In this document: piece by piece, positions 32,321-36,838 of the stretch
Numbering within the stretch: the first letter of the stretch is position 1
Layout of the letters: every line of letters begins with the position of its first letter
NCBI GenBank assembly: GCA_025808555.1
Contig: CP075526.1
Span: forward strand, 2,036,712-2,100,711
Source: Anaerolineales bacterium
Lineage (GTDB): Bacteria > Chloroflexota > Anaerolineae > Anaerolineales > UBA11579
Length of the DNA: 64,000 nucleotides
Reading direction: 5' to 3'
Position numbers and translations under genes: made by a program
Notes under the pieces: model-generated
What the model was told of the DNA's origin: nothing
Database searches by the model: none
What the model saw: only the letters and a program-made list of their open reading frames with translations

Positions 32321-33505
32321 CTATTTCTTCTTACTGGTGGGGACTGGACTTGTCAGCTCAGCGGGCAGGTGAGGCATATCAATGGCGGCCTCATCGCAAA
32401 AGAGCATAGCACGCTCTAAAACGTTGCGCAACTCGCGGATGTTACCCGGCCAGCTGTAGTTCATCAGCACCTGCATTGCCTTGTCGGTCACGTCTTGCAC
32501 GTTCAGGCCCATGCTGGAGTTGAAATGGTTGACGAAGAAGCCCACAAGTTCCGGAATGTCCTGCTTGCGCTCACGCAGGGCCGGCACCTTGAGTTGGAGG
32601 GTATTGAGGCGATACAGCAAGTCTTCGCGGAACTCGCCTTTGGCGATCATCTCCGGCAGATTGCGGTTGGAAGCTGAGACAAGCTGCACATCTACCTTGA
32701 TGAGCACGTTGCCACCCATGCGGCGAAAGGAGCGTTCTTCCAGGGCGCGCAACAACTTGGCTTGCATATCGGGCGCCATGGACGAGATCTCGTCGAGGAA
32801 GAGCACGCCATCATTGGCCTGCTCCATCAGGCCGATCTTCTTCTTGTCGGCGCCGGTGTAGGCGCCAGCTTCGTGCCCGAAGAGTTCGGACTCGATCATG
32901 GTGCTTTGGAAGGCGGCGCAGTTGATCGCCATGAAGGGCTTGTCTCGACGCGGGCCGATCTTGTGGATGTGCTTGGCCACCACTTCTTTGCCCACCCCCG
33001 TTTCACCCTGGATCAGGATCGAGACGCCCGCCTGAGCGCCGCGCTCGGCCTGCTGCAGGAGCGTCTTCATCTCCGGGCTGTTGCCGAGCACAAAATCGCC
33101 GTACTGGGTCTCGCGCAGGTGCAGCAGCTCGCGGCGCATGGCGACGATCTCGCCAGCGCGCTGCACAGATTTCTCCAGCCGTTTGAAATCGACCGGCTTT
33201 TGCAAAAAATCGTGTGCGCCGTTCTTCATGGCGTCAACGGCCATGTTGATGTCGCCGTTGCCGGTGATGACAAGCATCAACGGGCGCAGGGGCATGGAGA
33301 CGGTCTCCTCAAGCAGAGAAGTGCCCAGGCCGTCCGGCAACTGGACATCCATCAGCACGATGTCTGGGCTGTTTTGCTCCAGCAGCTGGCGGCCAGTCTT
33401 GAGATCGGCGGCTTCCAGCACTTCGTAGTCCTTCTTCTTTAGGAAGGCGGATACGTTGTCGCGGGCAGTTTTCTCGTCTTCGATCACCAACACGGTCAGG
33501 GTCAT
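32321..33505 (-). CDS. Sigma-54-dependent response regulator lacking a DNA-binding domain
   Basis: 394 residues. Receiver domain (about 1-120) with Asp53 in IVLMDVQLPDG and the switch Lys in FLQKPV. Then an AAA+ domain (about 140-380): Walker A GETGVGKE, the sigma-54 loop as GAYTGA instead of GAFTGA, Walker B GVLFLDEIS, arginine-finger region FREDLLYRLN and WPGNIRELRNVLERA. The protein stops about 20 residues after the AAA+ domain (ends TSKKK), so the usual Fis-type helix-turn-helix is missing. It should activate sigma-54 from solution, as H. pylori FlgR and chlamydial CtcC do. Cotranscribed with the kinase upstream. Confidence 0.93.
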   Translation of the reverse strand: MTLTVLVIEDEKTARDNVSAFLKKKDYEVLEAADLKTGRQLLEQNSPDIVLMDVQLPDGLGTSLLEETVSMPLRPLMLVITGNGDINMAVDAMKNGAHDFLQKPVDFKRLEKSVQRAGEIVAMRRELLHLRETQYGDFVLGNSPEMKTLLQQAERGAQAGVSILIQGETGVGKEVVAKHIHKIGPRRDKPFMAINCAAFQSTMIESELFGHEAGAYTGADKKKIGLMEQANDGVLFLDEISSMAPDMQAKLLRALEERSFRRMGGNVLIKVDVQLVSASNRNLPEMIAKGEFREDLLYRLNTLQLKVPALRERKQDIPELVGFFVNHFNSSMGLNVQDVTDKAMQVLMNYSWPGNIRELRNVLERAMLFCDEAAIDMPHLPAELTSPVPTSKKK

Positions 33506-33520: not shown

Positions 33521-35428
33521 CTAGTTCTGGGCGATGGGCAAGAGCAGCTTGAACATCGTGCCGCCGGGGAAGCTCTCCAGCGAGATGTCGCCCTTGTGGG
33601 CCATGATGATGCGGCGTGTGATCGAGAGGCCCAGGCCTGTGCCCTCGCCGCCCTTGGTGGTGAAGAAGGCATCAAAGATACGGGCGCGCAGCTCCTCCGG
33701 CACACCGGGGCCATTGTCCGAGATCACCACTTCCACCATGTCATCGCCGGCGCGGCTGACGTTGAGGGCCAGCAGCCCGTTTTCCTGGTTACCCATGGCC
33801 TGCATGGCGTTGGTGAACAAGTTGGTGAAGACCTGTTCCAGCGCGTGGGCATCGCCCATGATAAGCGGTATGTCTTCGCTGATCTGCAAATGGTCTTTGA
33901 TGTTCTTGCGCTGCAGGCGCACGCGCCAGCGGGCCACCTGCTGACGGCAGAACTCGGCGATGTCCATTGGCTCGGGCTGGTGGGCGCGGCCGCGGGCCAC
34001 GCCCAGCATGGAGTGCATATAGCGCGCCAGGCGCTCGCAATCCTCCAGCATGGTACGCAGCTGCTCGTGCCCCGGGTCGTTCTCGGGCAGGCTCATCTGC
34101 ATCAATTGAAGCGAAGTGCTGATGTTGTTGAGCGGGTTTTGCATTTCGTGCGCAAAGATGGCGGCCACATCGCCCAACCAGGCGCGGTCGCTCATTTGCA
34201 GGGTTTGCAGGTGGAAGGCCTCGTGCTCGCTGAGGTCGCTGATGAGGATCGCCAGGCGGGTGATCTTGCCGTCAGGCGCAATGGGCGCCAGGCGCACCAG
34301 CGCCAAAAATTCCTGCCCGTCGCGGCGCAGCAGCTTGCGCTTGCCCAGCTCCATCACTTCGTTGGCCTGCAGGGCCAACTCCAGTTCGGGCAGCAGGGCA
34401 CGGGTGCTGATGAGCACCTCGTGCACCGGGCGCTGTAGCACCTCGGCCTGTGAATAGCCCAACATCGCCTCGGCGGCCATATTGAGCTCGGTCAGGCGCA
34501 GCGCCGTATCGGTGAAGAGCACGCCGTCTTGCATGTGCTCGCGCAAGGCGGTATTGACCCGGTCGCTCTCAGCCAGACGGCTGGCATCCCGCCGCCAGGT
34601 GCTGCTCATCTGGGCGTTCAGCGCCGCAGTGGCGGCGCTGGCGGCCAGGATCTGCAGCAGGGTCAGCAGTTCTTCGCTGGGGCGGGCGTCTTCGCCGGCG
34701 GCGGCCAACAGGCCGGCCTCCGGCTGGGTCAGGTCCAGCGGCGTGCTGGCCAGGTAGCTTAGTTTGCTGGCATGGGCGGAGCGTTGCAGTGTGGATTCAA
34801 TGCTGCGGCCGGGCTGCCAGACCTTGGGCACGCGCAGTGCGCCTTGCTCAGCGGAGTCAAGTTGGGTGGGGAAATCAACGCCGCTGCCGTGCACGGCCTG
34901 CACTTGCATTGCGCCGTCAGGGCCGGGCGTGTAGAGCACCAGGTGGCGGGCGCCAGTCAGCAGCGCGCCGGCCTGCAAAATTTGGCGGTACGCCGAGGCC
35001 AGTTCGGGCTGCTGGGCGGCCAGGCTGAGCAGGTGCAGCGCTTCCCAGCGCTGGCGATTGTCCTCGCCGGCCGGGGCGCTGGCGCCGATCTCGAAGCTGA
35101 GCGCCAGCCACTGGTCTGTGCCGTTAAGCGGGCTGATGGTGACCAGCACCGGCGTGTTCTGGCTGTTACGTTTGATGAGCGCGGTGGCTTGCTTGCCGCG
35201 CTCGTTCAGTTTGAGCTCCGGCAGCAGGGTGCTGACGTTGAGCTCGCTCAGCTCCTTGCGCGTGAAGGCGGTCAGCTCGGTAGCGGCCCCGTTAGAAAAC
35301 AAAATGCGCCCCGAGCGGGCGCTGGCGATCAGGGTGGGGTGCGGCAGTAGATCAAGCAGGGCATGAATTTCTTCGTTGCCCGCGCTGCGGCGTTTGAAGG
35401 GTGAGAGATCGCCAATGGTGAGTGTCAT
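33521..35428 (-). CDS. Soluble PAS-domain histidine kinase (NtrB-like)
   Basis: 635 residues, no membrane segment. PAS domain (about 20-115: LLDLLPHPTLIASARSGRIL), a GAF-like region (about 130-275), a second PAS (about 295-400: MQDGVLFTDTALRLTELN), HisKA with FAHEMQNPLNNISTSLQLM (His427), and HATPase_c (DNGPGVPEELRARIFDAFFT, GTGLGLSITRRII). The HEMQNPL box and overall plan resemble NtrB/ZraS kinases that pair with sigma-54 activators. It is encoded directly after rpoN (stop and start adjacent) and 15 bases before the activator, the likely partner. Confidence 0.92.
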   Translation of the reverse strand: MTLTIGDLSPFKRRSAGNEEIHALLDLLPHPTLIASARSGRILFSNGAATELTAFTRKELSELNVSTLLPELKLNERGKQATALIKRNSQNTPVLVTISPLNGTDQWLALSFEIGASAPAGEDNRQRWEALHLLSLAAQQPELASAYRQILQAGALLTGARHLVLYTPGPDGAMQVQAVHGSGVDFPTQLDSAEQGALRVPKVWQPGRSIESTLQRSAHASKLSYLASTPLDLTQPEAGLLAAAGEDARPSEELLTLLQILAASAATAALNAQMSSTWRRDASRLAESDRVNTALREHMQDGVLFTDTALRLTELNMAAEAMLGYSQAEVLQRPVHEVLISTRALLPELELALQANEVMELGKRKLLRRDGQEFLALVRLAPIAPDGKITRLAILISDLSEHEAFHLQTLQMSDRAWLGDVAAIFAHEMQNPLNNISTSLQLMQMSLPENDPGHEQLRTMLEDCERLARYMHSMLGVARGRAHQPEPMDIAEFCRQQVARWRVRLQRKNIKDHLQISEDIPLIMGDAHALEQVFTNLFTNAMQAMGNQENGLLALNVSRAGDDMVEVVISDNGPGVPEELRARIFDAFFTTKGGEGTGLGLSITRRIIMAHKGDISLESFPGGTMFKLLLPIAQN

Positions 35429-36838
35429 TTAGCCAACCGCCTGCGGTTTGCGCAAATGCGCCGGCAGGATGCCCTCCATTGTGCGATATTTTGCGACGGT
35501 GCGCCGCGCAACTTCGTAGCCTTCTTTTGCCAGTAGCTTGGCCAGCGTGGTGTCGCTCAGCGGCTTGCGCTCGTCTTTCACGATCTTCTTCAAGGCGGTG
35601 CGGATGTGCAGGCTGCGGTCGAAGAACTGCGCCAGCGGCACGATCTTGCCCGAGGGTAGCTCGACCGACTTGCCGGACACGGCCCGCGAGACGGTCGACT
35701 CGTGCACGCCCAGCTCATCAGCGATCGTGGCGCGGGTGAACGGGCGCAAGTGTGCGTCGCCGCCCAGGATGAACTGGCGCTGCACCACGGCCAGCACCTG
35801 CATCAGGCGCACGATGGCTTGGTTGCGCTGGGCCAGGCACTTGATGAGCAAATTGGCCTGCTCGAGATCGATCTTCCATTGGTCAGACTTGTCTTCGGGT
35901 GCCTCTTGCAGCGCCTGCTGAAAGAGCGGGTTCACGCGCAGCACGCCGCGCAGCGGCCAGGTGACTTCCACTACCAGGCGGCCGTCTTCCTGCTGCTTGA
36001 TGATGAGATCGGGGCGCTGGTATACGGCCGGGGCGCCGGTGGTCGGCGTGCGCAGGCTGCCCCAGTGAGCGCGGGCGGGGAACGGGTTCAGGTTGGCGGC
36101 GATGAACTCAGCCACTTGCTGGGCCTTGGCCTTGCTCACACCGAGCAGACTGCCGAGTTCGGCGTATTGCTTCTTGCTCAGAGCGCCCAAGCCTTCGGTG
36201 ATGGCGCGGGCGCACAGGTCGAAGTTGGGGACCTGCTCGCCCAGGACGCGCAGTTGGGTCAGCATGGCTTCGCTGGTGGAGCTTGCGCCGACGCCGATAG
36301 GCTCCGCCATCATGATTATGCGCGCAACTTCTTCCACGTCCGTGACCGGTACGTGGTGGTAACGGGCGACTTCTAGCAGCGGCACAGTCAGCAGGCCGTC
36401 ATCGTCGAGGCTGGTCAGCAGGTGAGCGGCAATCTCTTGTTCTTTGGCGGTCAGCTCGCCGGCGATCTGGCGTAGCACAAAGCCAGCCAGATCTTCCGGC
36501 TGGGCGGCGTTGAAATCTTCGGGCAGCTCTTCGCCGCTGCGGGCGCTGCGGCCAAAGCCATCTTCGGGCGGGGCGATGAAGACCACCGGCTCGTCGCCCT
36601 TGGCGCTGTCAATGGAGACGCACGCGCCGCAGCGGGCGCCGGGGCGCAGCAAGCGGCCGCAGCTTGGGCAGTGGCGGCCTTCGAGCAACTCGAGGGCCGG
36701 GTTGGCGGCGAGGGCCGATTCGATCTTCTGGTTCAATTCTTGCAAGTTAAGCCCAAGCAGGCTCATGGTTTGAGCCAGGTGGGCGGTGGCTTGCGGGCGC
36801 TGGGAAGGGCCCTGGCGCAGAATAGGAGTGAAGGCCAT
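35429..36838 (-). CDS. rpoN: RNA polymerase sigma-54 factor RpoN with inserted zinc ribbon
   Basis: 469 residues. Region I is recognisable (AHLAQTMSLLGLNLQELNQKI). It is followed by an unusual four-cysteine knuckle CPSCGRLL...CGAC (Cys57, 60, 70, 73) of zinc-ribbon type before the core-binding domain. The C-terminal DNA-binding part has the helix-turn-helix IADELGVHESTVSRAVSGKS and the RpoN box ARRTVAKYRT (444-453; canonical last residue is Glu). It directs RNA polymerase to -24/-12 promoters and needs an AAA+ activator, encoded two genes downstream. CAGGAG and a TATAAT box lie upstream. Confidence 0.95.
   Translation of the reverse strand: MAFTPILRQGPSQRPQATAHLAQTMSLLGLNLQELNQKIESALAANPALELLEGRHCPSCGRLLRPGARCGACVSIDSAKGDEPVVFIAPPEDGFGRSARSGEELPEDFNAAQPEDLAGFVLRQIAGELTAKEQEIAAHLLTSLDDDGLLTVPLLEVARYHHVPVTDVEEVARIIMMAEPIGVGASSTSEAMLTQLRVLGEQVPNFDLCARAITEGLGALSKKQYAELGSLLGVSKAKAQQVAEFIAANLNPFPARAHWGSLRTPTTGAPAVYQRPDLIIKQQEDGRLVVEVTWPLRGVLRVNPLFQQALQEAPEDKSDQWKIDLEQANLLIKCLAQRNQAIVRLMQVLAVVQRQFILGGDAHLRPFTRATIADELGVHESTVSRAVSGKSVELPSGKIVPLAQFFDRSLHIRTALKKIVKDERKPLSDTTLAKLLAKEGYEVARRTVAKYRTMEGILPAHLRKPQAVG

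Follow-up and report, generated by a model that had tools for sequence, protein, structure and literature searches.

The sigma-54 factor (RpoN) encoded in the window, a stretch of 64,000 nucleotides from an Anaerolineales genome (Chloroflexota), carries a four-cysteine zinc-ribbon motif in the first half of its region II. The ribbon is real, is ancient in Chloroflexota and lies at a mechanistically important joint of the protein. It is described here by its presence, position, conservation, distribution and predicted fold and by the loss of acidic charge that accompanies it, and we infer a function for it. With modest confidence, we favor a reading in which this half of region II is a folded, structural Zn(Cys)4 ribbon that replaces the acidic linker and would serve as a node between regions I and II (RI/RII), limiting how much of the factor is unfolded by its activator. 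The literature searched yielded no account of a zinc site in sigma-54, and the Chloroflexota ribbon is apparently undescribed there. The ribbon defines its lineage by a change in a core transcription factor, in a phylum that is large and has been studied little.

The window copy is the only RpoN of this 2.24-Mb single-contig genome (Table 1). Pfam recognizes the activator-interacting domain Sigma54_AID (PF00309; 28.4 bits against a cut-off of 23.8), Sigma54_CBD (94.5 against 22.9) and Sigma54_DBD (113.5 against 22.8), and the RpoN box is invariant in alignment A1. The protein has cysteines at positions 57, 60, 70, 73, 209 and 334, the first four of which form RHCPSCGRLLRPGARCGACV, directly after NPALELLEG. 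Cys57 is found six residues past the end of the AID; the open reading frame and the Pfam boundaries thus bear out the preliminary description, which had located the four cysteines just behind the activator-interacting region. The motif LPEDF, further downstream, appears by inspection to match the RII-finger (P110/Y112) of E. coli sigma-54, as defined in PMC10786286. Region II extends from P47 to P106 of LPEDF in the window and from P45 to P110 in E. coli, an unchanged length which indicates that the ribbon replaces the linker and is no extension of it. At the beginning of region I (36755-36838, minus strand), most of the order reads TTAHLAQTM where E. coli reads MTPQLQQAI. The equivalent of E. 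coli P17, whose exchange for alanine abolishes activator interaction (PMC9770992), is alanine in most of the window's order, and many RpoNs elsewhere in the phylum retain SP or TP.

Table 1. Features of the rpoN locus, in window coordinates.
Feature	Coordinates	Strand	Basis
rpoN (sigma-54), 469 aa + stop	35429..36838	-	exact ORF
Sigma54_AID (region I, PF00309), residues 8-51	36686..36817	-	Pfam E 1.4e-6, AlphaFold2
Zinc-ribbon module, predicted, residues 49-90: strand 49-52, two Cys knuckles, strand 85-89 (EPVVFI)	36569..36694	-	alignment + AlphaFold2
Cys57 codon (TGC)	36668..36670	-	
Cys60 codon	36659..36661	-	
Cys70 codon	36629..36631	-	
Cys73 codon (TGC)	36620..36622	-	
Remainder of region II, residues 94-113, acidic, low confidence (pLDDT <50), with LPEDF (105-109)	36500..36559	-	AlphaFold2
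Sigma54_CBD, residues 111-303	35930..36508	-	Pfam E 8.9e-27
Sigma54_DBD, residues 324-464, including RpoN box ARRTVAKYR	35447..35869	-	Pfam E 1e-32
PAS histidine kinase, immediately following rpoN	33521..35428	-	
Response-regulator AAA+ activator (bEBP), GAYTGA loop, no C-terminal HTH	32321..33505	-	

The window RpoN shares with canonical sigma-54 factors (E. coli, Klebsiella, Aquifex) the AID, CBD and DBD, the RpoN box, an RII-finger-like LPxxF and a GAFTGA-type activator as partner. The difference lies in the opening of region II, which is disordered, strongly acidic and devoid of CxxC pairs in the canonical factors, whereas a near-neutral to basic Cys4 ribbon is found in the window. The acidic linker that the preliminary description had ascribed to textbook RpoN is indeed apparent in 79 RpoNs of other phyla, where the first 30 residues after NPxLE have a mean net charge of -8.0. 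The net charge of the ribbon is +4 in the window RpoN; it averages +3.3 within the order and +0.45 in the remainder of the phylum, and acidic charge reappears downstream of the ribbon.

AlphaFold2 modeled the full-length protein with a mean pLDDT of 83, placing helices at residues 11-28 and 32-45 of region I and having the two strands listed in Table 1 flank the knuckles. Over residues 41-90, the means of ten-residue blocks range from 70 to 94 and are mostly about 84-90; modeled alone (48 residues, pLDDT 76), the ribbon is predicted to adopt short hairpins and a helix. The positions conserved phylum-wide are the four cysteines (C1 to C4), the proline at C1+1, the glycine at C2+1, the leucine at C2+4 and an acidic residue at C1-4. 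The conserved strand EPIVF, by comparison, typifies the window's order and did not turn up in the other RpoNs of the phylum. The metal held by the four cysteines is very probably zinc.

All Pfam matches to the window ribbon fell below the family cut-offs, the best being DZR_2 (15.8 bits against 27, E 0.012), with Zn_ribbon_3 at 14.3 bits against 27; PF13453, considered for a TFIIB/TFB-type ribbon, matched 6 of 44 members with a best E of 0.027. The ribbon has in common with the double zinc ribbons (DZR, DZR_2, Zn_ribbon_3; bL32-like) a pair of CPxCG knuckles at short spacing, but scores below the cut-offs of these families, for which a sigma-factor context was not found described. In a structural comparison with VIA-align, the best of the 25 top chains were a mitochondrial large-subunit ribosomal chain (Z 2.3) and a C2H2 finger (Z 2.1), matches too weak to be used for assigning a known fold; other ribbons may lie beyond so short a list. 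Searching PDB sequences with the ribbon profile returned a mixture of zinc proteins, RNF4, YfgJ, Nop10 and L32 among them, which points to generic knuckles only.

A zinc ribbon that acts on sigma-54 is known from FlgZ (HP0958; PF02591, DUF164), which prevents the turnover of RpoN in Helicobacter pylori (PMC3372290). By analogy, the Chloroflexota ribbon might shield sigma-54 from proteolysis as a built-in counterpart of FlgZ. This is the least probable of the readings considered here: FlgZ is a separate protein with a ribbon of another family, the genome encodes a separate PF02591 protein of its own, and a position within RpoN beside region I would be unnecessary for such a role. A ribbon of the DUF164/FlgZ type was ruled out, as only 9 residues of the Chloroflexota ribbon match PF02591 (E 0.35) and a full-length match was not obtained.

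Conservation is strongest at the cysteines. A protein search of the window's own genome, genus, family and order detected RpoN in 51 of 61 genomes, and the four cysteines are present in every same-order RpoN that was read. They form invariant columns in 39 RpoNs with 36-88% identity to that of the window; besides them, only T24, M25, P47 and L49 are invariant within the N-terminal 110 residues. The two CxxC knuckles are invariant in alignments A1, A2 and A5. Both TGC and TGT are in use at each of the four sites, and this codon variation shows selection for the amino acid and not recent descent. The preliminary description had placed a four-cysteine metal site after region I and ahead of the core, to be checked by an alignment of Chloroflexota RpoNs and to be given up if the cysteines were missing from close relatives; they are clearly retained there, and such a motif is supported in the segment leading from region I to the core-binding domain.

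The ribbon is also not the trait of a single genus. RpoN matches were obtained in 86 of 251 genomes sampled across the phylum. One phylum member is Herpetosiphon aurantiacus, recognized by a second contig that matches plasmid CP000876 at 100% identity over the 6 kb compared, which identifies the phylum as Chloroflexota. From the RpoN matches, 40 loci were retrieved, two of them in the window's order and the other 38 in the wider phylum; all have two knuckles after NPALE, extra copies of multi-copy genomes included. In two cases (L085 and L089) the second knuckle is CxC (CxxC...CxC), and together with 50 same-order RpoNs, 90 out of 90 match CxxC-x(7-11)-CxxC or CxC. A scan of 400 phylum genomes with profile A4, which comprises the AID and the ribbon (hits counted at E <1e-6), gave 138 RpoN N-termini, 135 of which extend through the ribbon by a hand count of the listed rows. 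The first of the three exceptions is found at a contig end (G263). The second is a proteobacterial-type RpoN, which is probably a contamination (G683, L223). The third is a full-length RpoN without ribbon and represents a genuine loss (G148, L222). The latter genome retains a GAFTGA activator, which means that the ribbon has been dispensable at least once in a system that is not obviously lost.

Several other genomes depart from the common arrangement. Decay of rpoN is seen in family f35 (L222, L224, L225), in which two genomes hold fragments of 127 and 113 residues and the third the ribbon-less full-length protein. A Chloroflexota genome of 1.3 Mb (G222) encodes a divergent sigma-54-like protein of 369 residues with no recognizable AID or ribbon (L227, contig C7); a bEBP with GSFTGA and an HTH-like tail is encoded intact about 2.5 kb away (L229). 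Two near-complete genomes of family f11 in the window's order (G033 and G046) gave neither an RpoN match nor a strong Sigma54_activat match, which is consistent with a joint loss of RpoN and its activator.

Beyond Chloroflexota, a search with a generic RpoN yielded 80 loci, which come from Pseudomonadota, Thermodesulfobacteriota, Myxococcota, Bdellovibrionota, Bacillota, Nitrospirota, Verrucomicrobiota, Planctomycetota, Gemmatimonadota and others; one of these loci, with a missing N-terminus (L108), was dropped. A CxxC in the linker was present in none of the remaining 79, a sample without RpoNs of Armatimonadota or Dormibacterota, phyla close to Chloroflexota. Across 199 Bacillota genomes, essentially none of the AID matches to A4 runs past profile position 60, and in a Planctomycetota sample 57 of 58 end at or before position 56. 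One Planctomycetota locus (L175), matched up to profile position 94, seemed to bear a ribbon and was discarded, having no cysteines there. Stray A4 matches outside the phylum cover the ribbon part only and lie in other reading frames; these appear to be unrelated zinc proteins.

A tree was calculated from the C-terminal 370 residues of 162 RpoNs, thereby excluding the ribbon itself. A single branch with an SH-aLRT of 100 separates the ribbon-bearing from the ribbon-less proteins. As the tree is unrooted, one gain in Chloroflexota would be its simplest interpretation, and loss in the other lineages a less simple one. The best reading is a gain of the ribbon close to the base of the Chloroflexota RpoN lineage, followed by its retention almost without exception. 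Pairs of cysteines arising by chance are ruled out by their invariance together with the single change on the tree.

The position of the ribbon gains its significance from what is known of sigma-54 activation. Bacterial activators draw the N-terminus of sigma-54 into the pore of their hexamer and unfold RI-H1 (PMC9770992). Unlike other AAA+ unfoldases, they unfold their substrate only in part (PMC12054792), and according to the published accounts it is not known what brings this limited unfolding to an end or regulates it (PMC9770992; PMC12054792). Region II, the least conserved part of sigma-54, passes through the active cleft of the polymerase and out through the RNA exit channel; published structures of the open and initially transcribing complexes do not resolve the N-terminal part of region II (PMC10786286). 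In Chloroflexota, the ribbon follows immediately upon region I and precedes the putative RII-finger, in the activator's line of pull. With its metal in a structural role, it could form a rigid node that links region I, threaded and unfolded by the AAA+ activator, to the segment of region II in the polymerase cleft. Such a node might hold the RI/RII junction in place on the holoenzyme and serve as a hard stop: the pull of the activator would unfold region I and go no further.

This anchoring and stopping role, deduced from position, is put forward tentatively, and against a need for the ribbon stands the fact that other bacteria limit unfolding without one. A bolder version, which we consider doubtful, would have a zinc-clamped mechanical stop hard-wire the extent of remodeling, with ribbon and finger also being a convergent bacterial counterpart of the TFIIB ribbon and reader. 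A folded module that is near phylum-wide offers an ordered handle on the very joint that is pulled by the activator, and the end of limited unfolding becomes testable by removing the metal or the four side chains. If the bolder version is true, a metal site sets the extent of remodeling in Chloroflexota, an open question in all sigma-54 systems.

The main rival to the structural node is that the ribbon may dock on RNA polymerase or promoter DNA, near the flap and protrusion or at the upstream fork, and steer the RII-finger into the cleft as in TFIIB. In TFIIB and archaeal TFB, likewise initiation factors, a zinc ribbon precedes the finger that reaches into the active cleft of the polymerase, and the order of ribbon and finger in RpoN parallels that of zinc ribbon and B-reader. 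Knuckle spacing is shorter in the Chloroflexota ribbon than in TFIIB. The same roles have already been described for RII.3 and the TFIIB ribbon and reader (PMC6372665), and in E. coli the N-terminus of region II enters RNA polymerase beside the beta protrusion, the flap and ELH-HTH (PMC10786286). The basic charge of the ribbon in the window's order also agrees with docking, but the charge is about neutral in the rest of the phylum, and the remaining surface positions vary, none being conserved phylum-wide beyond the structural ones. No clear homology is detectable between TFIIB/TFB and the Chloroflexota ribbon, and the rest of the proteins is unrelated; TFIIB chains match the whole RpoN model only at a non-significant E of at least 0.1, and the Chloroflexota ribbon, unlike that of TFIIB/TFB, lies behind an activator-interacting domain. 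Altogether, docking on polymerase or DNA seems rather unlikely, and still lower probabilities fall to sensing and to docking of the activator, the two roles proposed earlier.

The preliminary description had considered that the site could sense redox state or zinc. With such a sensor, sigma-54 activity would change once the four cysteines were oxidized or lost their metal. Four cysteines at a regulatory joint would suit this reading, and redox signaling is reported for the TFIIB-like factor Brf2 (PMC4671959). The ribbon is, however, nearly universal in the phylum, including the RpoN of Herpetosiphon aurantiacus, and two paralogues even have CxxC...CxC. Herpetosiphon aurantiacus is an aerobe, and CPxCG-type knuckles usually hold structural zinc. 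With ligands that almost never vary and only the structural cysteine, proline, glycine and leucine positions conserved, this near phylum-wide module looks like a constitutive structural zinc site. Sensing thus finds no support here and is improbable.

The activator encoded two genes downstream of rpoN is the only true bEBP of the genome, so that the whole sigma-54 system consists of one RpoN and one activator. The protein stops just past the AAA+ lid and has no DNA-binding domain, and HTH-less bEBPs near rpoN also occur in other members of the family. The preliminary description had considered that the ribbon could bind the HTH-less activator; with both encoded in one gene cluster, such docking could make up for the missing DNA-binding domain. 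HTH-less bEBPs are also found in bacteria with ribbon-less RpoN, as exemplified by Helicobacter FlgR and Chlamydia CtcC. Other Chloroflexota have bEBPs with a C-terminal Fis-like HTH (L181, L183, L193) together with the same RpoN ribbon, which implies that the ribbon did not evolve for HTH-less activators. A link between the two was therefore ruled out, and docking of the bEBP in the window's own system is highly improbable.

Two further observations concern the activator and its possible targets. The window bEBP has GAYTGA instead of GAFTGA, the latter being found in a relative from another genus of the same family (G013). In the whole genome (G000), the motif TGGCACNNNNNTTGC, of the -24/-12 type, occurs 10 times (L206-L215), compared with 2 for the reversed control. 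The copy at L206 lies about 90 bases before the start of an open reading frame and is a candidate sigma-54 promoter.
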